From positions 1-39,774 of IMG/VR virus record IMGVR_UViG_3300030385_001667: a stretch of DNA of 39,774 nt; one strand, 5' to 3'. Positions within the stretch are counted from its first letter, which is position 1. Each line of letters starts with the position of its first letter. Made by a program: the position numbers and the translations under genes. Source of the stretch: a virus. This document shows positions 227 through 10,894 of this stretch, piece by piece. The notes below the pieces were generated by a model that saw only the letters and a list, made by a program, of their open reading frames with translations, was not told the DNA's origin and did no database searches.

Positions 227-288
227 AAGCGGCATGGTACGCCTGAGACGGAACGAAGGCGCATCATGCCGCTCGTCTTACCCGATGC
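227..288 (-). repeat. Hairpin repeat, copy 1
   Basis: Inverted repeat with about 17-bp arms (one A.C mismatch) around a 12-base loop that starts GAGACG on the plus strand. It is followed directly by the conserved flank CGTCTTACCCGATGC. The loop GAGACG can pair with CGTCTT in the flank. It lies between a terminator (291-346) and promoter P1. Confidence 0.9.
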
Positions 289-290
289 AT

Positions 291-346
291 AAAAAACCCC
301 ACCAGAGACTAACGGTGATCAATTCCGCTGTTCGACTCTGGTGGGG
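291..346 (-). terminator. Rho-independent terminator
   Basis: The 11-bp perfect arms (297-307 with 336-346, CCCCACCAGAG on the plus strand) are followed on the minus strand by six T residues. The loop is long, 28 bases. It lies just after the lipoprotein gene stop and ends the 1182-359 operon. Confidence 0.8.
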
Positions 347-358
347 CAGGGGGGAACA

Positions 359-553
359 TCATTTGGATTCGTATACTTTTTCAACCTCGCCCATCGTTAC
401 GACTGGCGGTTGTAGTACGGTATACACCGCTTCGATTGGCGATTGAATTCCAATCACATGCTGTCTGTTAGCGCATCCGCTGGTGGCAACCAACAGACCA
501 AACAGGAAAGCCAGCACGCAAAACAAAGCAGCCTTTTTTTGTGAATCTCTCAT
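359..553 (-). CDS. Small lipoprotein
   Basis: This 64-residue protein starts MRDSQKKAALF. A basic N-terminus and hydrophobic core (about residues 9-24) end in the lipobox-like LVATSGC, so signal peptidase II processing and anchoring at Cys25 or so are expected. An in-frame ATG further upstream was rejected because GAGGT precedes the ATG at 553. Its ATG overlaps the stop of the upstream 31-residue membrane peptide (TAATG), suggesting translational coupling. The membrane peptide and lipoprotein pair recalls lysis gene layouts, but nothing specific identifies a spanin. Function unknown. Confidence 0.7.
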   Translation of the reverse strand: MRDSQKKAALFCVLAFLFGLLVATSGCANRQHVIGIQSPIEAVYTVLQPPVVTMGEVEKVYESK

Positions 554-648
554 TATCCAAAGTACCTCATGTAAACTTGAAACACGTATCCCAAAACATA
601 AACCCACAAAGCTGAAACCAGCATGAAATCTCGTTGTTCTTTATTCAT
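553..648 (-). CDS. Small membrane peptide, 31 residues
   Basis: The ORF starts MNKEQRDFMLVSALWVYVLG and has one hydrophobic segment over residues 8-24. The start overlaps the end of the upstream gene by 8 bases and the stop overlaps the lipoprotein start (TAATG), so the operon is tightly packed. Tight overlap at both ends is the main evidence that it is real. A role in lysis or membrane modification is possible but unproven. Confidence 0.5.
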   Translation of the reverse strand: MNKEQRDFMLVSALWVYVLGYVFQVYMRYFG

Positions 649-970
649 GGTCATCTTCCTCGAAAAGGTCGTTTAATTGTTCTCCCTCAACAGCGGCCTT
701 AATTAACCCGTAGGTCATAAGCGTAATGTACAAGGCATGACCCGCTGCTGAATCCCCCCTAATTTTATCGTGGGTTTCGTGTTCCTCGTAGCAATCCTCG
801 GTAGCAAAACATTCTTTGATGTTTTCTAGGATGGTGAAAAGCAGAACGGGCTGCTCTTTTGAGAAGTCGAGAACTGATTGGGCTGTCCACTGTCCCGGCC
901 CGTCTGCATCCATGTGCTGCTTCTGGATAAAGGCTAATGCACACTTTTCGCTAACTGTTGCAATACTCAT
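641..970 (-). CDS. Hypothetical acidic protein, 109 residues
   Basis: The full-length ORF starts MSIATVSEKCALAFIQ and ends EEDDHE. It is acidic in the C-terminal third and largely predicted helical. The start ATGA overlaps the stop of the zinc-knuckle-like gene (967-1182), and GGGGGTGGAG just upstream can act as ribosome-binding site. It is the second gene of the operon driven from 1211-1238. I do not recognise the family. Confidence 0.7.
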   Translation of the reverse strand: MSIATVSEKCALAFIQKQHMDADGPGQWTAQSVLDFSKEQPVLLFTILENIKECFATEDCYEEHETHDKIRGDSAAGHALYITLMTYGLIKAAVEGEQLNDLFEEDDHE

Positions 971-1182
971 TCTCCACCCCCAAACATTTTATCAAAACAG
1001 GTTCCACAAGTCCCACTAATCAGAAGCTCACGTTGATCGGAAGACAGGTAAGGCATAGCGTCCTGAATATACTTGCCACCCTTCCAGTCAACAACGTCCC
1101 GCCTGTTGACGGGCATCTCTACCGACACCTTACATTGTCGACAGGTCGCCTGAATCATATCGCTTCGGTCTAATGCTACCAT
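967..1182 (-). CDS. Small protein with two CxxC pairs
   Basis: A 71-residue protein with CRQC near residues 14-17 and CGTC near 59-62, a spacing compatible with a structural zinc site. It starts MVALDRSDMIQATC with AGGGAGAAAACA immediately upstream. It is the first gene after promoter P2 and hairpin copy 2. Nucleic-acid binding is a reasonable guess for a phage protein of this sort, not a demonstrated function. Confidence 0.7.
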   Translation of the reverse strand: MVALDRSDMIQATCRQCKVSVEMPVNRRDVVDWKGGKYIQDAMPYLSSDQRELLISGTCGTCFDKMFGGGE

Positions 1183-1210
1183 TGTTTTCTCCCTACTTCT
1201 TATATCGACC

Positions 1211-1238
1211 AGTCTAACCTATATCTTTAATAGGTCAA
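1211..1238 (-). promoter_or_regulatory. Early promoter P2 (TTGACC-N16-TAGACT)
   Basis: On the minus strand TTGACC (1233-1238) and TAGACT (1211-1216) are spaced by 16 bases. It shares the unusual TAGACT -10 and the GG-TTGAC context with P1 and P3, and drives the four-gene operon down to the terminator at 291-346. Confidence 0.75.
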
Positions 1239-1290
1239 CCCTTTTTCTTAAAAAATCCAATTATTGCTAGTTCGCTTGCTGTTGTGGGCC

Positions 1291-1352
1291 AAGCGGTTTA
1301 GTACGCCTGAGACGTAGTGAAGGCGCACTAGACCGCTCGTCTTACCCGATGC
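1291..1352 (-). repeat. Hairpin repeat, copy 2
   Basis: Seventeen-bp arms with one A.C mismatch and one T.G pair, 12-base loop beginning GAGACG, and the flank CGTCTTACCCGATGC. About 40 bases to its left resemble the left side of copy 1 (GCTAGTTC...CGCTTGCTG). It is placed between a terminator and promoter P2, exactly as copy 1. Confidence 0.9.
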
Positions 1353-1353
1353 A

Positions 1354-1389
1354 TAAAAATGCCCCCACCGTTGATAAGACGATGAGGGC
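1354..1389 (-). terminator. Rho-independent terminator
   Basis: Eleven paired bases (1361-1371 with 1379-1389, including G.T pairs) are followed by CATTTTTAT on the minus strand. It would end transcripts from the 2611-1892 operon and from the gene-free stretch 1400-1880. Confidence 0.7.
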
Positions 1390-1399
1390 GGGAGAAAAC

Positions 1400-1885
1400 A
1401 AGAGCCGAGAGATGAGGCTCGGTCTTGAATCGGCGTTTTGAATTGCGCCACCAATGTGTAATAGTGGAAGGGGTGGACTTATGTGTTACCACCAACGTTT
1501 CGGGGACTGATATGTCACACCCTTGCGGGCGGTTCCCTACTTTGTACCACGCACTAAGCCCTCAGTCAGTTGACCCTTGATCCTAGTGTCGTGTGCCTTA
1601 CTCCCTCAGTCTTGCCTGAGTATTCGGCCACCTTCCTACTGGCAGGAGCTACCTAACCAGTATGTACTTCTATATAAAATCTGGCTTATCCAACTTACGC
1701 AACTCCCATCGGGATGGCATATTAAGTTACTCGGTTATGGTTTTGGACTACACCGGAACCTGTAGTCTCGCCAGTGTGTATTAAAAAACAGTTGTGGGGC
1801 AAGCCATTTCCCCATAAATCCTAAAACGTCCTACCGTTCCTGTCACCGAAGTGCAAAGGAGGCTTTAACTGAACAACTGAATTCG
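1400..1885 (-). ncRNA. Gene-free stretch, possible structured RNA
   Basis: Nearly 500 bases without a credible gene lie between the stop at 1892 and the terminator at 1354-1389. On the minus strand several local helices can be drawn, for example GACTACA with TGTAGTC, CTCAG with CTGAG, and GGTGG with CCACC. An ORF of 62 codons on the plus strand has no ribosome-binding site and opposes all neighbours. No known family was recognised and no promoter specific to it was found. Strand and ends are inferred from neighbours. Confidence 0.35.
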
Positions 1886-1891
1886 GTTAGA

Positions 1892-2245
1892 CTAGCTAAC
1901 CGTTTGGGTTTTGTCTCCGAAAATTGCCGAAGCAATAGTCTGAAACAATTCCCGTTTGGCTTCTGGTAAAACTTCCGTTCCAACCATACGCCCATCGTAG
2001 AATGTCTTAACATCGCCGCCAGCCAATTCCACCGTGTATAGTATCTCAGACCTACGGCCTTTGATATTGTCACGCCGGATAGTCTCTTGCGAAACAGGCT
2101 TGTCGATAATGTTGCGAACTTCTACAATTTCTCCGAAGTAAACTTCGGACTGGTCGGTGTAATCCGTGAGGGCTACACCGGCCTTGAGTTCATCCTTGAA
2201 CTGCTTTAGATACGTGAACTTTACTTTTTGTCCGTTTTTCAACAT
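1892..2245 (-). CDS. Hypothetical protein, 117 residues
   Basis: The ORF starts MLKNGQKVKFTYLKQFKDEL behind GAAAGGGAGAAAAG, a good ribosome-binding site. Alternating hydrophobic and charged residues (VYFGEIVEVRNII, ILYTVELAGGDVKTFYDGRM) suggest a small beta-rich fold like SH3-type or KOW-like phage proteins; no catalytic motif is visible. It follows the gene at 2294-2611 in the P3 operon. Function unknown. Confidence 0.75.
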   Translation of the reverse strand: MLKNGQKVKFTYLKQFKDELKAGVALTDYTDQSEVYFGEIVEVRNIIDKPVSQETIRRDNIKGRRSEILYTVELAGGDVKTFYDGRMVGTEVLPEAKRELFQTIASAIFGDKTQTVS

Positions 2246-2293
2246 CTTTTCTCCCTTTCAATATGTGGATTTTACCAAGACGGGCGGCGTGAG

Positions 2294-2611
2294 TCAAGCG
2301 TCTGTTTCCTCATCGCCCAATAAATCCTCGACACCCTGCTCGGCGGCAATCTTTTCGGCTTCCTCGGCTTCGGCCTCGGCCTTTTTCTCCGCTTGAGACT
2401 TGTCGTAAGCGGCAATATCGCTGACCAATTCATCGGCCAAAATTCGAGCCAACTCCAAAGGCATTTTGATCTCGACATTGTGCTGAAGATCCCCGATACC
2501 GAGGTCAGTAAAATCAAAGTCAACCATCTCGCCCCAGCCATGCACGTATATGCCAGCGTTAGCATTTTTGCTCAACGTAACATTCAGGTTTTCGGTTTTC
2601 TTAATTTCCAT
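2294..2611 (-). CDS. Hypothetical protein with acidic helical tail, 105 residues
   Basis: It starts MEIKKTENLNVTLSKNANAG after AGGGAGAAGCAAG. The first 65 residues look beta-rich; residues 70-105 form a highly charged Ala/Glu/Lys helix ending LLGDEETDA. It is the first gene after promoter P3 (2654-2681). I do not recognise it; a structural or adaptor role would be a guess. Confidence 0.75.
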   Translation of the reverse strand: MEIKKTENLNVTLSKNANAGIYVHGWGEMVDFDFTDLGIGDLQHNVEIKMPLELARILADELVSDIAAYDKSQAEKKAEAEAEEAEKIAAEQGVEDLLGDEETDA

Positions 2612-2653
2612 CTTGCTTCTCCCTAATCAAAAACTAGTAACTAACAATACTTG

Positions 2654-2681
2654 AGTCTACCATAGTTATCGGCATGGTCAA
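2654..2681 (-). promoter_or_regulatory. Early promoter P3 (TTGACC-N16-TAGACT)
   Basis: TTGACC (2676-2681) and TAGACT (2654-2659) with a 16-base spacer on the minus strand, overlapping the end region of the upstream gene (2686-2946). Its spacer shares GCCGATA with P1 and P4, further evidence of duplication from one ancestor. Confidence 0.75.
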
Positions 2682-2685
2682 CCGT

Positions 2686-2946
2686 CTAGATCCACCTTTT
2701 CTCAAAGTTTCCTGACCCCGGCGGCAGATTCTCAAAACGAACCGGCCCGTTGTCAAGCTGTCCCATAACGTCTCCAACTAGCTCAATCTCAATCTCGGTT
2801 GAGTCGTTGGTGGTCTGGTCGCCAAGAGAATCTTCATCACTATCTTCCCCTTCGGGAGCCGTCAGTTGAAATGGCTCATTCTCTTTTCTGCGCGCGTCCT
2901 CAATCGTGTTTTCCCAATCATTCATATAAGGATCTCGATACATCAT
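2686..2946 (-). CDS. Small acidic protein, paralogue of 4696-4854
   Basis: An 86-residue, strongly acidic protein starting MMYRDPYMNDWENTIEDARR. The segment TTNDSTEIEIELVGDVMGQLD (split here as TTNDSTEIEIE and LVGDVMGQLD) matches TTNDGSSIEIEIVDEWDGQPD of the gene at 4696-4854, so the two are paralogues. The start at 2946 has AGGGAGAAAATGAG before it. It lies immediately downstream of hairpin copy 3, as its paralogue lies downstream of copy 5. Function unknown. Confidence 0.7.
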   Translation of the reverse strand: MMYRDPYMNDWENTIEDARRKENEPFQLTAPEGEDSDEDSLGDQTTNDSTEIEIELVGDVMGQLDNGPVRFENLPPGSGNFEKRWI

Positions 2947-2981
2947 CTCATTTTCTCCCTAGTTCACAGTGTTCGCCGTTC

Positions 2982-3036
2982 AAGCGGCTTAGTGTTCGTG
3001 AGACAGGCGAACGAACACTAAGCCGCTCGTCTTACC
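2982..3036 (-). repeat. Hairpin repeat, copy 3 (perfect arms)
   Basis: The 17-bp arms are perfectly complementary, the loop is GAGACAGGCGA (11 bases), and the flank is CGTCTTACCC. It lies between the stop of 3041-3307 and the start at 2946 with no promoter or terminator recognised in the gap, so here it should be inside a transcript. Confidence 0.9.
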
Positions 3037-3040
3037 CTAT

Positions 3041-3307
3041 TTACTTGGCAGGGGTCGCCCTGTCTCCCATTGGGAGATCGAATATAATATCGTTGACACA
3101 CTCGGCGGCAGCGGTCAGGGTTTTGCAAAGGTAAATGTAATCATCCTCACCAACCTTATGGTCAACCTGATATCCCTTTACGGCCACTTGACCAAGCAGG
3201 TAACGATCTCCGGGTTCATCGTCACTACACTTTCGGACAGTAAGCACGTCCTGCTTATCATACATCTCGATAAACGTGCGCATTCTTTTTAGACTTGTCT
3301 TTGCCAT
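3041..3307 (-). CDS. Hypothetical protein, 88 residues
   Basis: It starts MAKTSLKRMRTFIEMYDKQD, with a basic N-terminus and a mixed body ending MGDRATPAK. Its ATG overlaps the stop of the preceding 35-residue ORF (TAATG), pointing to coupled translation, and there is only a weak purine tract. It contains two Cys (C27, C62 or so) without a clear metal motif. Family not recognised. Confidence 0.7.
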   Translation of the reverse strand: MAKTSLKRMRTFIEMYDKQDVLTVRKCSDDEPGDRYLLGQVAVKGYQVDHKVGEDDYIYLCKTLTAAAECVNDIIFDLPMGDRATPAK

Positions 3308-3414
3308 TATTCTTCATCCTCATCAATAGGCATGTCGCACATTGTCTGAGCTTCTTCAAATTCATCCAGCGGTTCAAGTTCAACGTCGTAATGTCCAAAT
3401 GAGTAAACTATCAT
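3307..3414 (-). CDS. Small acidic protein, 35 residues
   Basis: The ORF starts MIVYSFGHYDVELEPLDEFE and ends in a run of acidic residues. Its ATG overlaps the stop of the 54-residue gene upstream (ATGA) and its stop overlaps the next start (TAATG). The chain of overlaps is the evidence that it is translated. No family is recognised. Confidence 0.55.
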   Translation of the reverse strand: MIVYSFGHYDVELEPLDEFEEAQTMCDMPIDEDEE

Positions 3415-3575
3415 TCAACATTTCCTTTAGTGGGGACAAGCGAATACTCGCGTTGTCGGTTCAACAATTTCCAGTCTTTCAAATCCTTGCCCGTAAGAGG
3501 CTCGCCCGTATATACGTTCTGAGCATTAGCGTGACGTTTTACCATTTTCTCAACTGTCTCTTGATTCGGCATCAT
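3411..3575 (-). CDS. Small basic protein, 54 residues
   Basis: It starts MMPNQETVEKMVKRHANAQN, with TTAGGGAGAAAGA directly before the first ATG, and promoter P4 lies just upstream at 3598-3625. The second Met is an alternative start. It is Lys/Arg rich and ends VPTKGNVE. It opens the three-gene overlapping run to 3041. Function unknown. Confidence 0.65.
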   Translation of the reverse strand: MMPNQETVEKMVKRHANAQNVYTGEPLTGKDLKDWKLLNRQREYSLVPTKGNVE

Positions 3576-3597
3576 TCTTTCTCCCTAATAAAACCCC

Positions 3598-3625
3598 AAT
3601 ATAATCTATATCGGCAAACAGTCAA
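3598..3625 (-). promoter_or_regulatory. Early promoter P4 (TTGACT-N16-TATATT)
   Basis: TTGACT (3620-3625) and TATATT (3598-3603), 16-base spacer, minus strand. It is preceded by the same A/T-rich block (TTTTTCTTAAAAAAAGGG-like) as P1 and P2. It lies between the stop at 3634 and the start at 3575. Confidence 0.7.
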
Positions 3626-3633
3626 CCCTTTTT

Positions 3634-3795
3634 TTAAGAAAAATCCTTGATTGCCTTATTTTTCTGTGCTGTTCTGGTTCGCAGCTTGCGAGGTCGGTTA
3701 TCGTGCTTACCACTACCTCCACGGTAGTCAGCATGTCCACGGCTGGCTTTCCATGATGGTTTGGTATTGAGTTCAAGTGTAAATTTCTTAGCCAT
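3634..3795 (-). CDS. Small basic protein, 53 residues
   Basis: The ORF starts MAKKFTLELNTKPSWKASRG and has a very basic middle and end (GGSGKHDNRPRKLRTRTAQK). TAGGGAGAAAATGAG precedes the ATG. A Gly-Ser-Gly loop followed by Arg/Lys-rich residues suggests RNA or DNA binding. It sits downstream of hairpin copy 4 and the tRNA pair. The antisense and alternative-frame ORFs over the same stretch lack ribosome-binding sites. Confidence 0.65.
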   Translation of the reverse strand: MAKKFTLELNTKPSWKASRGHADYRGGSGKHDNRPRKLRTRTAQKNKAIKDFS

Positions 3796-3830
3796 CTCAT
3801 TTTCTCCCTAGTTCTGACTCGTTCGCAACC

Positions 3831-3885
3831 AAGCTGCTTAGTAGTGCTGATACTGTGAAGCACTACAAAGCCGCTCGTTTTACCC
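3831..3885 (-). repeat. Hairpin repeat, copy 4
   Basis: Seventeen-bp arms with two mismatches and the alternative loop GATACTGTGA; the flank is CGTTTTACCC, the only copy with T in that position. It lies between tRNA-His and the 53-residue gene, so it is probably co-transcribed with the tRNAs. Confidence 0.85.
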
Positions 3886-3900
3886 CATCCCTTCCGCGAG

Positions 3901-3974
3901 GGTGATTGAAGGGACTTGAACCCTCGACCCTTGGAACCACAATCCAATGCTCTACCAACTGAGCTACAACCACC
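3901..3974 (-). tRNA. tRNA-His (GTG)
   Basis: Cloverleaf with a 7-bp acceptor (GTGGTTG with CAATCAC), D-arm GCTC/GAGC, anticodon loop TTGTGGT giving GTG, and T-loop TTCAAGT. Base 73 is C and the extra base G-1 is encoded at 3974, the histidine identity pair. CCA is not encoded. It lies 5 bases downstream of tRNA-Asp and follows the large gene-free RNA region under promoter P5. Confidence 0.95.
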
Positions 3975-3979
3975 ACAAG

Positions 3980-4053
<74 letters not shown>

Positions 4054-4059
4054 TTGTTG

Positions 4060-4654
4060 TATTAAGTGGGGATTTTTGTTTGTAGTGTAGGAAGAACCCC
4101 CGAAACTCCCTGCCGATTTGTTACTGCACATGGCCAAAAATCGACAAACGATGCCACGCACGCACCAGAGTATAACGCCAAACGGTACGGCGCCTATTTG
4201 CTAGCGTCACAATTCGGGCGGGTTGCTATCCCTTGCCCATAGCAGAAAGGGCTGCTATCTTGCTAAAGCAATTTCTAATGAAGGCTCGCCCAACCTACCG
4301 CTGCTTGTTTTAAGTCGTCAGCGGCTTAACCGTGTTTATACTCACTCGACTATAATTGTACGTGGTGGAGCTTGCGAGAGCGTCCTCTCGCCATCGTACC
4401 CCAGTTTAGTAGCTTGCTCCACGTGGGGAATGTAGGGCGACGTGACTGGGATTTTCACCCAGCGAGACTGGCAACTGATTGTCACGGCTAGTCAACCGCT
4501 CCAGAAACTTAATCCCGGCCTTCAAATGCCACGAATCCAAGTTTCAGACATTCAACTGGACTATCCAGTTCCTCCTATTTCACGCCATGTTGTTTTGTTC
4601 CGGCAGCTTTCCTGAGATCGGGTAGCTCTAGGACGCCTCCAGTCCCACCGGTTA
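4060..4654 (-). ncRNA. Large candidate structured RNA upstream of tRNAs
   Basis: About 590 bases without a credible gene, beginning at the predicted start site of promoter P5 and running into tRNA-Asp. The 5' end (4594-4653) carries a motif shared with 6927-6989 and 8885-8946, with compensatory changes in its helices. Further helices are visible, for example CTGGG with CCCAG around GTGAAAAT, and GGCGAGAG with CTCTCGC. Size, phage origin and tRNA linkage resemble the ROOL and GOLLD RNA classes, but I cannot match their consensus from memory, so the family is unassigned. Confidence 0.6.
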
Positions 4655-4660
4655 TATTAT

Positions 4661-4688
4661 ATTATATCATTTGTTGGAAAAAAGTCAA
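4661..4688 (-). promoter_or_regulatory. Strong promoter P5 (TTGACT-N16-TATAAT)
   Basis: TTGACT (4683-4688) and a consensus TATAAT (4661-4666) spaced by 16 bases on the minus strand. The predicted start near 4654 falls at the beginning of the structured motif, with no ribosome-binding site or gene behind it, so it drives a non-coding RNA and the two tRNAs. Confidence 0.85.
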
Positions 4689-4695
4689 CCCCCCT

Positions 4696-4854
4696 TTAAC
4701 AATCGGGATCGAAATCGTGCCACTCTTGAGCCTCATCAGGCTGACCGTCCCACTCATCTACAATTTCAATTTCAATAGACGATCCGTCGTTAGTGGTGGC
4801 CTCGTCAAGGTCGTCCGGTACATAGCTGGGCTTCTGTAAATCAAAATTCGTCAT
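4696..4854 (-). CDS. Small acidic protein, paralogue of 2686-2946
   Basis: A 52-residue, very acidic protein starting MTNFDLQKPSYVPDDLDEAT and ending HDFDPDC. It shares TTND-x-IEIE-x-DxxGQ with the gene at 2686-2946. An upstream in-frame ATG (4890) was rejected because it falls inside hairpin copy 5, while AGGAGAAAATGAG precedes the ATG at 4854. Function unknown. Confidence 0.65.
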   Translation of the reverse strand: MTNFDLQKPSYVPDDLDEATTNDGSSIEIEIVDEWDGQPDEAQEWHDFDPDC

Positions 4855-4888
4855 CTCATTTTCTCCTGTTTCACTTGGTTCCGCGCTC

Positions 4889-4945
4889 AAGCGGTTTTGA
4901 TGCGCTGAGACGGGCGAAGCGCATCAAGACCGCTCGTCTTACCCG
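4889..4945 (-). repeat. Hairpin repeat, copy 5
   Basis: Seventeen-bp arms (AGCGGTTTTGATGCGCT with AGCGCATCAAGACCGCT), loop GAGACGGGCGA, flank CGTCTTACCCG. It sits 35 bases upstream of the start at 4854 and after the stop at 4960, with no promoter in between. Confidence 0.9.
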
Positions 4946-4959
4946 TTCCCTACCCTTGG

Positions 4960-5286
4960 CTAGTATGGAACCCAGTACACTACCCTACCCGTTGGCGTGT
5001 TGACATATACAGGTCGCGTGCGGTAGTAGTTGGGGCGGTAGTAATAGCTTTGGTATCGCTGTTGTTGCTGAAAATAGTTCAACCTTTGCTTACGAATAGC
5101 AGCCGCCGCCATTGCGTCCCGCATTCTTTTTTCCTTAGCCCAATTTTTGCGGGCTACCTCTCTGGCTGCACGTTGCACCACTGTGTTGGTTGGCATCCGT
5201 AGCCAAACGGGTTCGTTACCCGCTGGCTGCTGGATGTTCGCCAACTGTGGCAAAAATAGAAAAAGGTTTATTAGTAAAGTATTCAT
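4960..5286 (-). CDS. Secreted or membrane-tethered Tyr/Arg-rich protein, 108 residues
   Basis: It starts MNTLLINLFLFLPQLANIQ, a probable signal peptide of about 17 residues without a lipobox. A basic helical segment (residues 35-70) is followed by a Gln/Tyr/Arg-rich tail (QQQQRYQSYYYRPNYYRTRP). TAAGGAATGATT precedes the ATG at 5286, so the extra Met-Ile at 5292 was not used. The composition suggests an exported, possibly surface-binding protein. Family not recognised. Confidence 0.7.
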   Translation of the reverse strand: MNTLLINLFLFLPQLANIQQPAGNEPVWLRMPTNTVVQRAAREVARKNWAKEKRMRDAMAAAAIRKQRLNYFQQQQRYQSYYYRPNYYRTRPVYVNTPTGRVVYWVPY

Positions 5287-5295
5287 AATCATTCC

Positions 5296-5475: not shown

Positions 5476-5476
5476 A

Positions 5477-5842: not shown

Positions 5843-5851
5843 TTTCATTTC

Positions 5852-6025: not shown

Positions 6026-6043
6026 TTTCTTTTCCTCTAAAAA

Positions 6044-6071
6044 ATTATACCACAAATTGACTCGGTGTCAA
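6044..6071 (-). promoter_or_regulatory. Early promoter P6 (TTGACA-N16-TATAAT)
   Basis: Perfect consensus hexamers TTGACA (6066-6071) and TATAAT (6044-6049) with a 16-base spacer, minus strand. It lies between hairpin copy 6 and the gene starting at 6025, the same order as copies 1 and 2. Confidence 0.85.
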
Positions 6072-6153
6072 GTTTTTTACCAAAAGGTAAGCGGTCGAGG
6101 CCAGCCCCAGTAGTCGGGTCGCGGTCGCCTCGGTTGCTTGTGTTGTCGCCCCC

Positions 6154-6214
6154 AAGCGGTGTTGATACGCTGAGACGGGCGAAGCGCATCAACACCGCTC
6201 GTCTTACCCGATGC
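6154..6214 (-). repeat. Hairpin repeat, copy 6
   Basis: Arms of 12 and 4 bp separated by one A.C mismatch, loop GAGACGGGCGA, flank CGTCTTACCCGATGC. It comes right after the stop of the gene at 6218-6403 and is followed by promoter P6. Confidence 0.9.
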
Positions 6215-6217
6215 GGT

Positions 6218-6403
6218 CTAGTCCTCTCCCATGTGATGCTCACACCACGAATCAGTCCAGTATGCAAAACCACAATCCGGGCAAAGCTCAGACATGGATT
6301 CTAGATTGTCCACCCTTCGATCAAGCGTGCCTACTCTTTCGACGTGATACGAAATCCCAACAAGCACAATGATGACCACCAACAATATAAAGCTACTTTT
6401 CAT
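6218..6403 (-). CDS. Membrane-anchored protein with Cys/His cluster, 61 residues
   Basis: It starts MKSSFILLVVIIVLVGISYH, a single N-terminal transmembrane helix, followed by a short linker and CPDCGFAYWTDSWCEHH, which can form a zinc site (C-x2-C-x9-C-x-HH). TGGGAGGACGCAAA precedes the ATG at 6403, which overlaps the stop of the upstream gene (ATGA). A membrane-tethered zinc-binding peptide; partner unknown. Confidence 0.7.
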   Translation of the reverse strand: MKSSFILLVVIIVLVGISYHVERVGTLDRRVDNLESMSELCPDCGFAYWTDSWCEHHMGED

Positions 6404-6660
6404 TTTGCGTCCTCCCACTGATAGCCACTCGCCGGAAGTATCTCGTCGAGGTTGCTAGTGCGGCTGATGACGTGCGGCTTAATCTCCGACATGGACACGG
6501 TGCCGATCTCATCATTGAAGCCCATCACCAGAGCGTACTTAATATCGGAATCAGGTTCGTCACCTGCTTCGTCGGCCAGTACGAAATATTCCCACATGTT
6601 ACGCAAGATGATATGCTCAACCACGTTCAACTTCAAATTGCCTTTGACCATTTTTCTCAT
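6400..6660 (-). CDS. Hypothetical protein, 86 residues
   Basis: It starts MRKMVKGNLKLNVVEHIILR, with AAAGGAAATGAAA immediately before. Acidic in the middle (DEAGDEPDSD) and probably mixed alpha/beta. It ends in GACGCAAAATGA, overlapping the next start. The longer in-frame start at 6720 runs through the previous gene and was rejected. Not recognised. Confidence 0.7.
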   Translation of the reverse strand: MRKMVKGNLKLNVVEHIILRNMWEYFVLADEAGDEPDSDIKYALVMGFNDEIGTVSMSEIKPHVISRTSNLDEILPASGYQWEDAK

Positions 6661-6674
6661 TTTCATTTCCTTTT

Positions 6675-6818
6675 CTAAATATAGCCTCTGTTGGTTGCCC
6701 AAGTGAGCATTGCAGCCCATCGGAGAGGATTAATCCTGTCGGGGCAAGCTGTCCCTGCGACTTGCAGCCGAAGCAGGAATTGCTCTTGATTCATTCTGTC
6801 AGTTCTAGTGTTTAACAT
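6675..6818 (-). CDS. Hypothetical protein, 47 residues
   Basis: The ORF starts MLNTRTDRMNQEQFLLRLQV, with CAAAGGAAATGAAA upstream, the same start sequence as the next gene. It contains PDRINPLRWAAMLTWATNRG; probably helical. It is the first gene downstream of the RNA-like stretch 6840-7189. Not recognised. Confidence 0.6.
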   Translation of the reverse strand: MLNTRTDRMNQEQFLLRLQVAGTACPDRINPLRWAAMLTWATNRGYI

Positions 6819-6839
6819 TTTCATTTCCTTTGTGTGGTT

Positions 6840-7189
6840 GCGGGCTATTCAGTGACTCTTAATCCTAACCGGCAGCCTGCGTACATCGTTGAGAGGTGGC
6901 TTATACGGTTCCAGTCAGCCCGACTTGTTTTATAACCGGCGGCTTTCCTGAGTATGGGTAGCCTAAAATCAGCCTCCAGATTCACCGGTGTGCCAGAAGC
7001 CGCCTCTGCGCCCTAAGCTAACAGATTCGCACGGCCTAGTCTGGCTCTTGTGTTGCCGCCACTGGCTCGTATGGTCACGCCTGTCAGAGTAGTTCCGCTG
7101 TGCGGCTTGCTTGAATGTGACGCCCACAGCATTGCTGTTACGTGGCGGCTTGTGTTCGTTGGCCCCAGTGTGTCGGGGCCGTTGTCGTT
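6840..7189 (-). ncRNA. Candidate structured RNA, copy 2
   Basis: A gene-free stretch of 350 bases between hairpin copy 7 and the gene at 6818. It contains the covarying motif at 6927-6989 and, upstream of it on the minus strand, GGGCGTCACATTCAAGC ... CTGACAGGCGTGACCAT, also found in the 8770-9114 copy. ORFs across it lack ribosome-binding sites. No dedicated promoter is clear, though TTGACA is present at 7249-7254. Confidence 0.5.
6927..6989 (-). ncRNA. Covarying RNA motif, copy 2
   Basis: On the minus strand: outer helix ACCGG with CCGGT, inner GGCT with AGCC and CC with GG, invariant TGGAGGC, then ATAAAAC. Copy 3 (8885-8946) keeps the pairs with changed bases: ACCAG with CTGGT, AGCT with AGCT, GC with GC. 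Copy 1 is at 4594-4653. Compensatory changes support a real RNA structure. Confidence 0.65.
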
Positions 7190-7250
7190 GAGCGGCGTAG
7201 TGGTCGTGAGACAGGGCGAACGACCACTACACCGCTCGTCTTACCCGATG
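7190..7250 (-). repeat. Hairpin repeat, copy 7
   Basis: Seventeen-bp arms with one mismatch, loop GAGACAGGGCGA, flank CGTCTTACCCGATG. Beyond the flank it continues as TCAACCCCTAATC..ATTTTTCC, which is duplicated next to copy 9. It lies between the 53-residue gene and the RNA-like stretch. Confidence 0.9.
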
Positions 7251-7288
7251 TCAACCCCTAATCCAGTATTTTTCCAAAAAAAAGGCAA

Positions 7289-7450
7289 TTATTCTGTCGG
7301 TCGGCACGCGGCTATGAACCTACCACGGTCGAAACGTGGGTACTGTTCAAAAGTGTTCGCCAGCAGATTGGCAATCATCCATCGGCTACTACGCGGGTGA
7401 ATGTTCGCCACGGCCTCGGCCACAATTTCAAAATGCTTTTTAGTCATCAT
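7289..7450 (-). CDS. Small conserved-type phage protein, 53 residues
   Basis: It starts MMTKKHFEIVAEAVANIHPR and ends with PRFDRGRFIAACRPTE. The pattern (MTKKHFE...A-x-I ... ANxLAxxFxxxxPRFDRxRFxxAC) is one I recall from many short phage early proteins of unknown function. GAGAGGTGAAAA precedes the tandem ATGs. The stop of the upstream membrane peptide overlaps its first codons. Function unknown. Confidence 0.75.
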   Translation of the reverse strand: MMTKKHFEIVAEAVANIHPRSSRWMIANLLANTFEQYPRFDRGRFIAACRPTE

Positions 7451-7538
7451 TTTTCACCTCTCGCTTTGCTAGTAAATATAATCCAATCGTTGTACCAGTA
7501 CCCAAGAACCAACCCAAAACAAACATTATGCTACACAT
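7440..7538 (-). CDS. Small membrane peptide, 32 residues
   Basis: The ORF starts MCSIMFVLGWFLGTGTTIGL and has one transmembrane helix followed by a charged tail (AKREVKNDD). TAAGGAAAATAAAA lies before the ATG. Its last 11 bases overlap the start of the next gene (ATGATGACTAA). Function unknown. Confidence 0.6.
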   Translation of the reverse strand: MCSIMFVLGWFLGTGTTIGLYLLAKREVKNDD

Positions 7539-7549
7539 TTTTATTTTCC

Positions 7550-7843
7550 TTATTCGCAACCATAGCGGCTACTAGCGAGAACGGCAGCTTTACCTTTGAT
7601 GTAGCTATCACGCTCTACTTTAAAAGCGGGTACATGATAGACATTGAACTGCTTATCGTACCCAACCTCTACGTCACCGAACTGCTCAACATAACTGTTG
7701 AAGTCATCCTGTGAATGAACTACTCGATGAGCATCGGTCATAGTCTCAACACGCATGCCGACTTTCCAAGGATCACCGGCAGGATCAGTCTGCTCGACGT
7801 GAGCCTTAAAAATTTCTGATAGTTTCTTTAGTTCGTTTTTCAT
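7550..7843 (-). CDS. Hypothetical protein, 97 residues
   Basis: It starts MKNELKKLSEIFKAHVEQTD, with TAAGGAAAATGAAA upstream. Mixed alpha/beta with Tyr/Phe-rich second half (YDKQFNVYHVPAFKVERDSY). The longer frame to 7885 overlaps the upstream gene's end region without a ribosome-binding site. Not recognised. Confidence 0.7.
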   Translation of the reverse strand: MKNELKKLSEIFKAHVEQTDPAGDPWKVGMRVETMTDAHRVVHSQDDFNSYVEQFGDVEVGYDKQFNVYHVPAFKVERDSYIKGKAAVLASSRYGCE

Positions 7844-7889
7844 TTTCATTTTCCTTAATTCACTCGGTCTAATTATTCTTGCCAAAATC

Positions 7890-8066
7890 CTACTCGCAAC
7901 GGCGAGCTTCTGTCAAATCTCTACACTCAAAACGCCGTACCACTTCACCATCGCGGAGGATTTCACAAAGCCAACCGAATTCGAGTTTGGTTACACGCTT
8001 GGGGTGTCCACCCGCTTCACGGGTTAGCTTGCAAGGTTTCAGCATTGTTGATTGTCCAACTTTCAT
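7890..8066 (-). CDS. Hypothetical protein, 58 residues
   Basis: The ORF starts MKVGQSTMLKPCKLTREAGG, after AAAAGAGAGAATT. It is basic, contains four Cys (near 12, 34, 48 and 57), and ends DLTEARRCE. It is the first gene downstream of hairpin copy 8 and the palindrome at 8181. No convincing promoter was found in 8067-8180. Not recognised. Confidence 0.65.
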   Translation of the reverse strand: MKVGQSTMLKPCKLTREAGGHPKRVTKLEFGWLCEILRDGEVVRRFECRDLTEARRCE

Positions 8067-8180
8067 AATTCTCTCTTTTCTAAAAAACTCTTAACTTCTC
8101 AACTATTACTATTATCGACTAGGGGTGTGACACGTTAGGTCACTGGCTCAGATTTTTTTTCATTTTTTTCATGTTTTTTT

Positions 8181-8198
8181 ATTGAGACTAGTCTCATT
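8181..8198. promoter_or_regulatory. Palindrome TTGAGACTAGTCTCA, copy 1
   Basis: Near-perfect 18-bp palindrome (ATTGAGACTAGTCTCATT), the same as at 9223-9240 and close to 10091-10108. To its right lies a GC hairpin (ACCCCC/GGGGGT) and then hairpin copy 8; the same three-part order occurs at copy 10. Could be a protein operator or an RNA stem. Confidence 0.55.
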
Positions 8199-8234
8199 AA
8201 GCCGTACCCCCTCGGTGGGGGGTTGCTGCCGTCC

Positions 8235-8294
8235 GAGCAGCCTAGTACGCCTGATACTGTGAAGGCGCACTAGGATGCTTGTCTTACCCGAAGC
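8235..8294 (-). repeat. Hairpin repeat, copy 8
   Basis: Arms of 17 bp with two mismatches, alternative loop GATACTGTGA, flank TGTCTTACCCGAAGC. The TAA within the flank (minus strand GGGTAAGAC) serves as the stop of the 33-codon GTG ORF at 8284-8385. Confidence 0.85.
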
Positions 8295-8385
8295 GTCTAG
8301 CGAACCGCCGTGACCTATGCGTGGCGTACCATTCTCGTTTGGCCTTGTTCGCTGAGTGTCGGCGTTTTCGTTTTCCGTCTGGCAC
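8284..8385 (-). CDS. Possible very basic 33-residue peptide (GTG start)
   Basis: The frame reads (M)PDGKRKRRHSANKAKREWYA and ends RRFARRFG. GGAGG lies 5 bases before the GTG, and the GTG is 1 base after the preceding stop. About 40% Arg/Lys would suit nucleic-acid binding. The equivalent GGAGG after the paralogue at 10380 serves a different small ORF. Only the ribosome-binding site and spacing support it. Confidence 0.35.
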   Translation of the reverse strand: MPDGKRKRRHSANKAKREWYATHRSRRFARRFG

Positions 8386-8386
8386 G

Positions 8387-8731
8387 TCAACCTCCGTTGC
8401 TCGTTGTCCAGACCGGTCGGCCATCGACAGCAAGTCGAACGTGACTTCGATTGCTGATATGGGGCGCTCGCTTCATGATGCCATGAGCGAAGCATGCCTC
8501 TTGCAGTTCACGAATCAATGAACCAACACCACCAGTGTTGAGCCTTGATCGCCACTTGTTGGCTGGCGACCACGGTGCGTTGATAGGATTGTCAACCCAT
8601 CGCCACTGGCAATTGCTAATGTCGTTCACGTCGAGACTACACCATACGCTAACACCATTGTCGTTAAGCCTTCGTGCAAGCACAAGAACTCGGTTTCTAT
8701 CATTGTCGTTTAGTTTGAATTTCGTTTTCAT
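8387..8731 (-). CDS. Hypothetical protein, paralogue of 10380-10709
   Basis: A 114-residue protein starting MKTKFKLNDNDRNRVLVLAR and ending in VDGRPVWTTSNGG. It shares KxNDNDxxRV, LxxDVND-type, EACFxHGIMKR, RSHVR and WTTSNGG with the gene at 10380-10709, an unmistakable paralogue. AGAAAGATGAGATT precedes the ATG. The conserved C-terminal motif suggests a functional site, but I do not recognise the family. Confidence 0.8.
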   Translation of the reverse strand: MKTKFKLNDNDRNRVLVLARRLNDNGVSVWCSLDVNDISNCQWRWVDNPINAPWSPANKWRSRLNTGGVGSLIRELQEACFAHGIMKRAPHISNRSHVRLAVDGRPVWTTSNGG

Positions 8732-8769
8732 AATCTCATCTTTCTAAAAAATAGTTGTTTCAAAATCGG

Positions 8770-9114
8770 TTTTGAATAGACCGGACTATGCTTGCGACTT
8801 GGGCAAGGCTTGCGGGTTAAACCCTTTGCCGTTGTTTACTTGTTCAGCTTCAAGTGCCGTTGTTTACGTGTTCAGCTTCACGATGTTTTATACCAGCAGC
8901 TTGCTTGAGATCGAGCAGCTTAAAGACGCCTCCAGTCCCACTGGTTACCTAGCTTGCACTTGCTTCCACGATGGTCATGCCTGTCAGACTCAGTCACTTG
9001 AAAAGCGATCTGGTTGAATGTGACACCCACGGCGGGGGTTACCTTGCTAGGTGGTGTTCGTTGACTCAGTGTATCGAGTTCGTTGTGTTGGCTTTGTGTC
9101 GTCCTGTTGTCCTC
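8770..9114 (-). ncRNA. Candidate structured RNA, copy 3
   Basis: Gene-free stretch between hairpin copy 9 and the gene at 8731. It shares with the 6840-7189 copy CCAACGAACAC, GTCACATTCAA, TCTGACAGGC-TGACCAT and the covarying motif (8885-8946). Its downstream part holds two tandem 28-base repeats and a segment duplicated near 9712-9775. The 81-codon and 90-codon plus-strand ORFs oppose the operons and lack ribosome-binding sites. Confidence 0.5.
8825..8880. repeat. Two tandem ~28-bp repeats
   Basis: The unit GCCGTTGTTTACTTGTTCAG plus CTTCAAGT occurs twice in tandem with few changes. Three further units lie at 9628-9712. Flanking sequence at 8765-8825 (GAATAGACCG..CTATGCT) is also duplicated near 9712-9775. 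Confidence 0.7.
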
Positions 9115-9176
9115 AAGCTGCTTAGTAGTGCTGAGACTGGTGTGAAGCACTACAAAGCCGCTCGTCTTACCCGATG
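9115..9176 (-). repeat. Hairpin repeat, copy 9
   Basis: Arms of 17 bp with two mismatches, loop GAGACTGGTGTGA (13 bases), flank CGTCTTACCCGATG. The arm is closest to copy 4. The sequence beyond the flank is duplicated at copy 7. Confidence 0.9.
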
Positions 9177-9222
9177 TCAACCCCTAATCTTGAATTTTTC
9201 CAAAATAAATGGGATTATTCTT

Positions 9223-9240
9223 ATTGAGACTAGTCTCAAT
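9223..9240. promoter_or_regulatory. Palindrome TTGAGACTAGTCTCAA, copy 2
   Basis: Perfect 18-bp palindrome ATTGAGACTAGTCTCAAT, 6 bases after the stop of the gene at 9247-9588. No T-run follows on either strand, so it is not a terminator. Operator or RNA stem. Confidence 0.6.
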
Positions 9241-9246
9241 TAGGGT

Positions 9247-9588
9247 TTAGCTCTCGCCGTTTTTTCGGATATCGCCATTAGGCCATCGCTTGGGTTTCGG
9301 CGTCCAGCAGTATTCCAAAATAAACATTTCAGTCTTGTCAAACGGTTCGCATACAAGTTCCATATCGTCAAGGGTACGCTCAAACCATTTGAGACAACCA
9401 TCGAACGTCTGGAAGGGCCAGCTTGTCGTTGTATCTAGACTTCCATCAGACTTGAGGGTGTCAACCGTAGCCATGAAAGATCCGTTGCAATCGTCGATAT
9501 GCAGAGCAAACGAGTCATTGGTTCGCTTCCAGATTATGTTAGCTTTGACTACTCGCTTGCCATTGATCTTGATTAAGTGGTTGTTCAT
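9247..9588 (-). CDS. Hypothetical protein, 113 residues
   Basis: It starts MNNHLIKINGKRVVKANIIW, after TAGAAAGAAAATGAAA. Beta-rich first half (NDSFALHIDDCNGSFMATVD), then a helix (FDGCLKWFERTLDDMELVCE) and a Trp/Pro-rich end. The general pattern resembles small phage early proteins. The longer frame to 9630 has no ribosome-binding site. Not recognised. Confidence 0.75.
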   Translation of the reverse strand: MNNHLIKINGKRVVKANIIWKRTNDSFALHIDDCNGSFMATVDTLKSDGSLDTTTSWPFQTFDGCLKWFERTLDDMELVCEPFDKTEMFILEYCWTPKPKRWPNGDIRKNGES

Positions 9589-9627
9589 TTTCATTTTCTT
9601 TCTAAAAAACAGGCTATTCTGGCCCGC

Positions 9628-9712
9628 CATTGTTTACTTGTTAGGCGTTCAAGTGTCGTTGTTAACCTGTTCAACTTCAGGTGTCGTTGTTTACTTGTTC
9701 AACTTCAAGAAC
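9628..9712. repeat. Three tandem ~28-bp repeats
   Basis: Three units of the form TGTCGTTGTTTACTTGTTCA plus ACTTCAAG, the first degenerate, directly upstream of the gene at 9588. They match the two units at 8825-8880. No spacers separate them, so this is not a CRISPR array. They may be protein-binding iterons or duplicated leader sequence. Confidence 0.7.
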
Positions 9713-9764
9713 GGTTTTGAATAGACCGTAAACTATGCTAGCGACTAGGGCTAGGCTTTCGGGT

Positions 9765-9977
9765 TTAACCCTTGTAACAATTCACAACGTTAGTGATGAA
9801 CTCCTCGTTGTTCATGAGGAAGTTGACTTGAGTATGGCTTTTACCCATCTCTTGCAAGATGTTTCCAACCTTGCAGATAATCTTAATCTCATTTGTCAAA
9901 CCAAACGGGATTCGACTTGCAACCATTTCGTGGGTTGTGAGATCATTTACTCTTGTATTGTATTTTGTGAATGTCAT
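9765..9977 (-). CDS. Hypothetical protein, 70 residues
   Basis: It starts MTFTKYNTRVNDLTTHEMVA and ends NNEEFITNVVNCYKG. The start was chosen because GAAAG lies 7 bases upstream and the paralogous leader of 10380-10709 also begins coding at MTF. An in-frame ATG at 10013 coincides with the predicted transcription start. Driven by the promoter at 10020-10048. Not recognised. Confidence 0.65.
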   Translation of the reverse strand: MTFTKYNTRVNDLTTHEMVASRIPFGLTNEIKIICKVGNILQEMGKSHTQVNFLMNNEEFITNVVNCYKG

Positions 9978-10019
9978 TTTATTACTTTCGTTAGTGTTAT
10001 TGTTTTTTATCATGCTCTT

Positions 10020-10048
10020 AGTATAACATGCTTGTTGCAATTTGTCAA
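10020..10048 (-). promoter_or_regulatory. Promoter P7 (TTGACA-N17-TATACT), leader class 2
   Basis: TTGACA (10043-10048) and TATACT (10020-10025), spacer 17. Exactly 6 bases after the -10 comes ATG (10013), so the RNA should begin at or near AUG. Shared with the promoters at 10752, 11446 and 11712. Confidence 0.8.
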
Positions 10049-10090
10049 TAGCAATTTCAGTTTTTTTCAAAGTTTTTTTCATTATTTCTT

Positions 10091-10108
10091 ATTGAGATCA
10101 GTCTCAAT
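10091..10108. promoter_or_regulatory. Palindrome TTGAGATCAGTCTCAA, copy 3
   Basis: ATTGAGATCAGTCTCAAT, with one asymmetric central pair compared with the other copies. It sits between hairpin copy 10 and promoter P7, with a GC hairpin (ACCCCC/GGGGGT) to its right, the same layout as at 8181. Confidence 0.55.
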
Positions 10109-10144
10109 AGGCTCTACCCCCTTGGTGGGGGGTCTTTCACGTCC

Positions 10145-10198
10145 TAGCGGCTTAGTAGTGCTGATACTGTGAAGCACTACTAACCCGCTGGTCTTACC
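10145..10198 (-). repeat. Hairpin repeat, copy 10
   Basis: Arms of about 17 bp with internal mismatches, loop GATACTGTGA, flank GGTCTTACCT. The flank core GTCTTACC is kept although the outer bases have drifted. Confidence 0.8.
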
Positions 10199-10264
10199 TG
10201 ACCTGCCCACCTATTAGGCAGTGTGCCTATAGGGTAGGCATGTGGTGGTGGTGGTGTGCCTAGC

Positions 10265-10375
10265 CTACAGCGTGTGCAGTAGTAGACATGCACCACCAGC
10301 AGCAGCAGCCATGACCATGCTAACCAGAGCGAACATGATAGCCATCTCTTTGATACAGTAGAGTACATTGCTCAT
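10265..10375 (-). CDS. Small membrane peptide, 36 residues
   Basis: The ORF starts MSNVLYCIKEMAIMFALVSM and continues with an Ala/Gly/Leu-rich transmembrane segment. GGAGGTTAAGCAC lies before the ATG, with GGAGG overlapping the end of the preceding gene. One of several single-pass peptides in the arm. Function unknown. Confidence 0.55.
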   Translation of the reverse strand: MSNVLYCIKEMAIMFALVSMVMAAAAGGACLLLHTL

Positions 10376-10379
10376 GTGC

Positions 10380-10709
10380 TTAACCTCCATTGCTTGTTGT
10401 CCAGATAGGTACACCATTGATAGCTGCACGTACATGGCTACGTGTACCCATGCGTGCGGGACGCTTCATGATACCATGATTGAAGCAAGCCTCTTTCATG
10501 TCATTGATCAATGCACCGATACCGCCATTGTGCAATGGCTGATCCATTGTGCCAAAGGTATTAGGTGATGGGCTACTAAGGAATCTCCATTCACATCTGC
10601 TCATGTCATTCATATCCATCTTAATCCAGATGTCTATGCCATTGTCATGAAGCATCATGTTGAGGTTACTCACTCTTGTCTTATCGTTATCGTTAATCTT
10701 AAAAGTCAT
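10380..10709 (-). CDS. Hypothetical protein, paralogue of 8387-8731
   Basis: A 109-residue protein starting MTFKINDNDKTRVSNLNMML. It shares NDND, EACFNHGIMKR, RSHVR and WTTSNGG with the gene at 8387-8731. Similarity begins at this Met, which, with AAGGA 7 bases upstream, decides the start over the ATG at 10745. The leader contains a CAA repeat. Promoter at 10752-10779. Confidence 0.8.
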   Translation of the reverse strand: MTFKINDNDKTRVSNLNMMLHDNGIDIWIKMDMNDMSRCEWRFLSSPSPNTFGTMDQPLHNGGIGALINDMKEACFNHGIMKRPARMGTRSHVRAAINGVPIWTTSNGG

Positions 10710-10751
10710 TTTGTTTTCCTTGTTGTTGTTGTTGTTGTTTGTCATGTTCTT

Positions 10752-10779
10752 ATTATACTATACTTATTGTAATTGTCAA
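10752..10779 (-). promoter_or_regulatory. Promoter P8 (TTGACA-N16-TATAAT), leader class 2
   Basis: Two consensus hexamers, TTGACA 10774-10779 and TATAAT 10752-10757, spacer 16. ATG follows the -10 after 6 bases (AAGAAC), as at the other three class-2 promoters. The 36-base leader is A/C-rich with CAA repeats. Confidence 0.85.
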
Positions 10780-10839
10780 TAGCATTATGGAATTATTTTG
10801 TTATTCATTGTGTCACTCGGTGTATCTGTTTGAACGTCC

Positions 10840-10894
10840 AAGCAGTATAGTTAAGCTGATAGTGTGAAGCTTAACTAGACTGCTAGTCTTACCT
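10840..10894 (-). repeat. Hairpin repeat, copy 11
   Basis: Seventeen-bp arms with one mismatch (AGCAGTATAGTTAAGCT with AGCTTAACTAGACTGCT), loop GATAGTGTGA, flank AGTCTTACCT. The arm sequence is the most diverged in the set, while length, loop and flank are kept. Confidence 0.85.

Follow-up and report, generated by a model that had tools for sequence, protein, structure and literature searches.

In the early mRNA of phage T7, RNase III sites are repeated intergenic hairpins, all in one orientation, that divide a polycistronic message; they are not known to have a constant loop and foot sequence. In PeSL (promoter early stem-loop), the stem-loop is the terminator itself, and the put RNA of phage HK022 is present in few copies. 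The ESAS of cluster K mycobacteriophages are inverted repeats of ~17 bp with a 4-13 bp spacer, present in many copies, mostly in one orientation, in the non-structural half of the genome and upstream of translation starts; their arms hold a consensus, and RNA pairing is unsupported according to their authors (PMC3203893). Later work revealed SigA-like -35 and -10 hexamers inside ESAS (PMC11373665). In T4-like phages, PeSL units, which combine a stem-loop with an early promoter, are repeated in a variable region and are reportedly linked to module shuffling (PMC4503421). HK022 put is a structured RNA of the phage early region that acts in cis (PMC9378689), and the gene 43 RNA operator of T4 and RB69 is a hairpin with a conserved loop that precedes the start codon by ~40 bases and is read by a phage protein (PMC3014915).

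Here we analyse a hairpin element present in 11 copies in the window, i.e., the whole 39,774-nt stretch of viral DNA under study (IMG/VR record IMGVR_UViG_3300030385_001667). All copies listed in the preliminary description were located at their places; the model E-values (1e-16 to 1e-21) are a check of placement only, because the model was built from these 11 copies. As had been claimed, all 11 lie the same way round, none occurs in the right arm, and, according to our gene calls, each falls in noncoding DNA (chance ~0.30 per copy; 1.5e-6 for all 11). The copies are confined to the early arm, which is transcribed leftward from the minus strand, and the element is absent from the late and replication regions of the IMG/VR records searched. 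Because the early genes lie on the minus strand, the hairpin as first described has to be reverse-complemented to give the RNA-sense form; upstream, downstream, 5' and 3' are used below with respect to that strand.

In its sense form, the element consists of 5'-GGUANNACGAG, a 16-bp stem closed by a U-A cap, the loop UUCRC-n-GUMUCA and the 3' stem arm. The arms, previously put at about 17 bp, form a stem of exactly 16 bp, to which a U-A pair is added that hardly varies, and in regular copies the 16-bp stem and a loop of 12-15 are kept with no exception. The reported flank, GTCTTACC, is exact in 10 of the 11 window copies, with GTTTTACC in copy 4, and its sense counterpart in relatives is GGUANNACGAG. 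The claim that the arms differ widely between copies needs qualification, as copies 4 and 9 are identical, copy 10 is near both, and copies 1, 2 and 8 share the inner part. The data establish a hairpin whose stem is fixed in length, at 16 bp, but free in sequence, and in which the U-A cap, the loop and a 5' single strand, GGUANNACGAG, are all conserved. We rejected a pseudoknot in which loop GUCU would pair with the flank (AGAC): the flank sits ~1 nt away from the base of the stem whereas the loop is 16 bp distant, and 11 of 26 copies lack the pair at columns 7/38, where double changes are almost absent.

Pairing was further analysed in 35 copies from eight IMG/VR contigs of uncultured phages, the window included; seven of these contigs represent one phage clade by terminase (73-85% identity), and 2 to 11 copies were recovered per contig. 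In the covariation alignment (26 copies), 94.6% of stem cells are paired, and compensatory double changes occur at 11 of the 17 stem pairs. Double-change cells numbered 104, compared with 31.8 in shuffles, and the covariation score reached 0.626 vs 0.134 in shuffles and 0.016-0.153 in slid controls. At one orthologous locus in two phages (G5_8074 and G6_19711), the flanks are 95% and 93% identical and 8 of 16 bases differ in each arm, with pairing retained. Pairing is therefore conserved in independent relatives, which strongly supports the earlier proposal that the structure is kept while the sequence drifts; a lack of conserved pairing in homologues had been named as what would speak against it. 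A distant relative, G015, carries another dyad (GACGTAAG..CTTACGTC pairs) in comparable places; judged by eye, it is without compensation and was treated as non-homologous. Stems that vary freely in sequence yet remain paired suggest that structured RNA elements of a new family mark gene boundaries in these phages.

In 29 of 35 copies, folding is more favourable (lower MFE) for the sense than for the antisense strand (p = 9e-5, in a test that ignores relatedness). The ratio of G-U to A-C appositions over all copies (23 vs 5) likewise favours the sense strand and drops to 12 vs 5 (p = 0.07) once identical arms are collapsed. Single-stranded sense DNA would produce these same signals.

The general arrangement is gene, (terminator), element, (promoter), Shine-Dalgarno sequence, gene. 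A terminator lies directly 5' of the element in nine copies compared with 1.65 in shuffles, its U-tract abutting the element at 0 nt in six, while a single downstream terminator was found (1.2 in shuffles). Copy 1 (221..283) follows an intrinsic terminator with an inverted repeat (297..346) and precedes a sigma-70-type promoter, TTGACA-16-TAGACT (approximately 142..171); copy 2 (1285..1347) is likewise flanked by a terminator 5' and a promoter 3', as the preliminary description had it. Its placement of copy 6 (6148..6209) just before a promoter also proved correct (TTGACA-16-TATAAT), and promoters lie just downstream of copy 10 (10139..10199; TTGACA-17-TATACT, together with the palindrome TGAGACTAGTCTCA) and copy 11 (10834..10894; TTGACA-16-TATAAT). 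Past copies 3 (2976..3037, without a terminator), 4 (3825..3885, located 3' of a tRNA-Asp/tRNA-His pair) and 5 (4883..4944), a Shine-Dalgarno sequence and ATG follow at 29, 24 and 28 nt, respectively. Copy 7 (7184..7246) has TTGACA 2 nt 5' of it and copy 9 (9109..9172) has TTGACA and TGAGACTAGTCTCA upstream, both with a noncoding stretch 3', and TGAGACTAGTCTCA lies 32 nt downstream of copy 8 (8229..8289). The 3' foot of the element merges into Shine-Dalgarno sequences such as GCUUGAGGAGGACAUUUAUG. Both a terminator and a promoter flank window copies 1 and 2 as well as G3_21875 and G1_1949, a terminator and a weaker promoter flank G5_2940 and G1_575, and most of the 35 copies are without flanking terminator and promoter. 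No U-tract was found 3' of the element, where the stem is followed by a YRAGG-like sequence; hence, the element itself is not an intrinsic terminator. A promoter within the element was also rejected: TTGACA lies ahead of 12 copies, at distances that vary, and inspection by eye revealed no -10 spaced 16-18 nt from it.

ESAS and put had been named as comparators by outline; the resemblances stand but go no further, ESAS being without RNA-pairing support (PMC3203893). Like ESAS, the element is found upstream of translation starts in a non-structural region; unlike ESAS, its arms vary yet pair, with 11 of 17 pairs covarying, and no -10 is seen inside it. The ESAS-linked 13-bp SAS GGGATAGGAGCCC has one 2-mismatch match in the window (4220-4232), at chance level (0.39) and not at an element. 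HK022 put differs in structure from the element, which is a single hairpin in many copies positioned 3' of the adjacent terminator. Compared with PeSL, the hairpin is a separate one that sits between the terminator and the promoter at the loci with both, while the majority of copies have neither one; synteny breaks are not enriched at the element, though single chimeras exist. The T4/RB69 gene 43 operator occupies one site per genome, whereas 2-11 copies of the element were recovered per contig. The likeness to T7 RNase III sites lies in the repeated intergenic hairpin in one orientation, cleavage here being only proposed. Rfam covariance models gave no match at gathering score (the only hit at E up to 5, mir-1298 at 2980-3030, scored 24.7 bits against a cutoff of 70 and was set aside as chance), and blastn against the GenBank phage collection returned partial matches only (E of 2 to 5) and no relative. 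A 14-base exact search hit 67 viral stretches, most judged to be chance, as were matches in bacterial and archaeal genomes, judging from titles and scatter.

Among the roles proposed earlier, RNA processing or an RNA-protein site would be the best fit. Tentatively, we favour a hairpin formed in sense-strand RNA, to which a dedicated protein would bind and which would punctuate early (read-through) transcripts. The element would then act in cis, as a structured RNA made from the minus (sense) strand of the early arm. One protein, phage-encoded or host, may recognise the loop and the foot, both of them constant, together with the fixed distance between the two, and may bind all copies present in early or read-through RNA. 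Most probably, this would bring about separation of the upstream unit, whose 3' end would be the terminator hairpin if present, from the downstream unit, whose RNA would then start at a stable hairpin just 5' of the ribosome-binding site. Possibly this involves cleavage at or near GGUANNAC; otherwise, binding without cleavage may protect or regulate the downstream message. A more specific version, which we regard as rather doubtful, is a dedicated phage system in which one protein would read the 16-bp-ruler hairpin at many gene junctions and, by cutting or capping, divide early read-through RNA into units that each gain a defined 5' hairpin. That protein, probably encoded by the phage, would be an endoribonuclease or a binding protein with specificity for both sequence and structure. 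Read-through is the only route by which copies flanked by both a terminator and a promoter would be transcribed, and the contigs of the clade yielded no RNase III gene; both points count against punctuation. The search for a single-subunit RNA polymerase gave no match, but its controls gave none either.

Compensated arms, a conserved foot and loop, and a single orientation are also compatible with a folded single-stranded DNA substrate. The sense strand could fold as single-stranded DNA or a cruciform that serves a recombinase or a replication protein, and early-gene modules would be joined in the manner of integron cassettes at attC. A RecA-like gene is present in contig G002, and at some loci chimeras have their junction exactly at the element, such as G3_18777, whose upstream flank corresponds to G6_18111 (96%) and whose downstream flank corresponds to G2_464 (93%). 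However, three tests of the suggested role as a recombination boundary revealed no enrichment at elements over other boundaries: 10 of 72 were collinear at elements vs 64 of 288 at other gene boundaries (p = 0.14), the neighbour was kept in 3 of 13 cases vs 24 of 95 elsewhere, and 27 HSP ends fell at elements (20.8 expected). Unlike for integron attC, no integrase or other tyrosine recombinase (PF00589; 14 of 14 controls positive) was found in 10 contigs, which are fragments, and no Y1 transposase (PF01797) was found in the same set; we consider a DNA-level site unlikely. The lack of a Y1 transposase in these contigs also counts against a selfish mobile hairpin (MITE/REP-like) inserting behind terminators, which would explain a dispersed repeat, arms common to several loci and the six copies directly at a terminator U-tract. 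Yet the orientation relative to transcription is the same in 35 of 35 copies, the other record regions are free of the element, and, unlike REP/RAYT or MITE, there is no empty-site polymorphism, as no conserved gene pair is occupied by the element in one phage but empty in a second one; this origin seems the least probable.

An RNA hairpin adjoining terminators, restricted to the early region and present in many copies, could also be a put-/nut-like antiterminator or attenuator acting in cis on RNA polymerase leaving each unit. Polymerase from the promoters downstream of copies 1, 2, 6, 10 and 11 would, however, miss the adjacent copy; the element lies 3' of, not 5' of, the adjacent terminator; and, with no U-tract 3' of it, the element is not itself an intrinsic terminator. 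In HK022 put and lambda nut, the site sits between the promoter and those terminators that it suppresses. Here, the adjacent signals, which are the ones mapped, run in the order terminator, element, promoter, and on this basis antitermination, another of the proposed roles, seems unlikely. Overall, we give such cis control a low probability. Many near-equivalent copies with free arm sequence, clear of reading frames in the early region, would also suit a decoy, i.e., untranslated hairpins titrating a host RNA-binding factor or defence nuclease. A decoy needs no such strict position after terminators and directly 5' of Shine-Dalgarno sites, and transcripts from the nearest promoters do not include several of the copies, which makes this quite improbable.

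Base pairing maintains the element across many loci of a single genome, while stem length is fixed and loop and foot are constant, whereas the known repeated regulatory elements at phage gene junctions compared here keep a DNA consensus (ESAS) or are terminators and promoters (PeSL). Searches for a putative reader protein can now start from a covariance model and from a small set of phages. If the element does act in RNA processing, it would represent a new phage way of dividing early transcripts.

The left arm of the 39.8-kb IMG/VR virus record analyzed here (the window) carries small leftward genes up to about 12.7 kb, and rightward genes begin at 12.9 kb. The rightward arm contains genes for a protein with sigma-70 region 2, an epimerase, an ERCC4-type nuclease, the terminase large subunit (19335-21338) and a head protein (25807-26829); nine leftward early-arm proteins were scanned, and a single one, an HNH endonuclease, passed its Pfam cutoff. 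We confirmed the position of each of the eleven hairpin copies that the preliminary description had placed in the window. With the early genes encoded on the minus strand, the element in its sense form reads as the reverse complement of the version described earlier. According to the gene calls used here, all 11 copies fall in noncoding DNA; a random 62-nt segment would do so with a probability of 0.30, and all 11 by chance with a probability of 1.5e-6.

An IMG/VR search with a 14-base flank and a gapped loop-plus-flank pattern found other contigs carrying the element, and a covariance model built from 26 copies, run against whole records, matched G001, G002, G003, G005, G006, G007 and the window. 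G013 was added by a terminase-guided search, and a weak match in G004 (E 0.001) was left out of the count. Thirty-five copies across eight contigs, window included, were thus analyzed (11 in the window, eight in G005, six in G003 and two each in G001, G002, G006, G007 and G013). Relative to the query, the terminase is 84-85% identical in G001, G003 and G013, 78% in G007 and 73-74% in G002 and G005; G006 is absent from the terminase matches. The element was not matched in the more distant G014 and G015 (terminase identity 58-61%), the early arm of G014 perhaps lying outside the contig, nor was a match found in Rfam. The seven pattern matches in the genome collection belonged to unrelated organisms and were taken as chance. 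Among G001, G002, G003, G007 and G013, several contigs stop inside an element or about 1 kb or less away from one, the pattern that repeats interrupting the assembly would leave; hence, the copy number per genome is a lower bound. In G015, another paired dyad, GACGTAAG...CTTACGTC, occurs five times (L125:11256-18437) upstream of early promoters and may form an array of DNA operators that plays the element's role.

In all regular copies the stem is 16 bp long and capped by a U-A pair, and the loop, cap included, measures 12-15 nt; G5_1055, G3_21875 and G1_1949 (named by contig and position) have an irregular inner stem or loop and retain the constant foot of the hairpin. The earlier proposal that the structure is kept while the sequence drifts is borne out in the relatives: in the 26-copy alignment, standard pairs occupy 94.6% of stem cells (68.1% when shuffled), both sides have changed at 11 of 17 stem pairs, and double-change cells number 104, compared with 31.8 after shuffling. 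The covariation score of 0.626 compares with 0.134 for shuffled alignments, which do not correct for relatedness, and with 0.016-0.153 for versions slid by 1-3 columns, which retain it. At the third base pair, many relatives have a G.G mismatch where most window copies have C-G. A loop-flank pseudoknot was tested and rejected.

At a locus common to G005 and G006, with 60-nt flanks of 95% and 93% identity, 8 of 16 bases have changed in each arm with pairing retained. G5_9487 and G2_750 share an identical downstream flank; the differences between their arms are an A-U/G-C exchange, which is compensated, and G.G versus C-G near the foot. The same arms recur at different loci within one genome, a spread to which gene conversion between copies probably contributes. 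Single loci appear chimeric at the element, and mosaicism spans the entire early arm. Nevertheless, the suggestion that the element marks recombination boundaries was not supported, as in three tests elements did not exceed other boundaries in synteny breaks: at elements, alignment ends numbered 27 against 20.8 at random, collinearity was 10/72 at elements and 64/288 elsewhere (p = 0.14), and neighbors were conserved at 3/13 elements and 24/95 other boundaries. No conserved gene pair was found with the element in one phage and without it in another. Genes for a Y1 transposase, a tyrosine recombinase or RNase III were likewise not found, which is weak evidence since the records are fragments. 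PeSL cassettes of T4-like phages, which comprise stem-loops and early promoters, are credited with module shuffling (PMC4503421).

The order around the element is gene stop, terminator (where present), element, promoter (where present), Shine-Dalgarno site and gene. An intrinsic terminator lies immediately upstream of 9 of 35 copies (1.65 in shuffles), its U-tract, judged by eye, directly abutting the element in six; downstream there is one terminator-like site, compared with 1.2 in shuffles. Ten copies have a promoter match of 9/12 or better after them, against 6.0 in shuffles, which leaves the weak matches with little meaning; a score of at least 10/12 is reached after window copies 1, 6, 10 and 11, G3_21875 and G1_1949. 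Other copies are directly continued by the Shine-Dalgarno site of the next gene, e.g., GCUUGAGGAGGACAUUUAUG. A TTGACA hexamer occurs 2-10 nt upstream of 12 copies, with a matching -10 seen by eye in none of the 12, and the perfect palindrome TGAGACTAGTCTCA or a near variant is close to seven. The operator-like palindrome ATTGAGACTAGTCTCAAT lies near elements 8, 9 and 10 (8181-8201, 9222-9243 and 10088-10109) and is also close to elements at G5, G6, G7 and G13 loci; its half-site TGAGAC recurs on the plus strand within the loop of the element.

Further sequences were noticed in these regions. A second repeated, structured-looking sequence (minus strand; 4590-4654, 6925-6989 and 8884-8947; about 76-83% identical) occupies noncoding stretches adjoining elements 4/5, 7 and 9 and had no counterpart in the relatives used for comparison. 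Upstream of early genes, at 8827-8911 and 9626-9710, there are tandem 28-bp repeats (TGCCGTTGTTTACTTGTTCAGCTTCAAG-like). On the minus strand, positions 1462-1662 resemble manA RNA (RF01745), an RNA described from marine sequences and cyanophages (PMC2864571), with a score of 31.1 bits (E 6.5e-5) that falls below the 55.2-bit cutoff. In G005, a sigma-70 region 4-like protein (GVSRERVRQIVAKAERRLEKAM), recognized by eye only, is encoded between elements (L088:1525-2100, minus strand).

Among known systems, the ESAS of cluster K phages is alike in size, number and placement; its authors, who favored DNA binding, reported that departures in its repeats give no support to RNA pairing (PMC3203893), and later work found SigA-like hexamers in it (PMC11373665). 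The element lacks at least one tested feature of each of ESAS, attC, REP/RAYT and the intrinsic terminator. On the sense strand, G-U pairs exceed A-C mismatches by 23 to 5 in all 35 copies and by 12 to 5 (p = 0.07) in the 23 unique arm pairs, and the sense RNA fold is more stable than the antisense one in 29 of 35 copies (Wilcoxon p = 9e-5, relatedness uncorrected). These two signals favor the sense strand as the active one, most simply in the form of RNA, with single-stranded sense DNA as a possible alternative. An RNA could act in antitermination, as the preliminary description suggested, and HK022 put provides a case of an early RNA that acts in cis (PMC9378689); however, this role fits the element poorly, because a polymerase from an internal promoter would reach the next terminator before any element.

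A protein that contacts both ends of the hairpin would call for just such a design, in which the foot and the loop are constant and the stem between them is fixed in length and free in sequence. We tentatively propose, giving the idea somewhat less than an even chance, that the element punctuates RNA by way of a dedicated protein that binds or cleaves it. Its position between units, downstream of the terminator where one is present and upstream of the promoter or Shine-Dalgarno site, is one at which read-through RNA would be divided or the downstream message would gain a stable 5' end.
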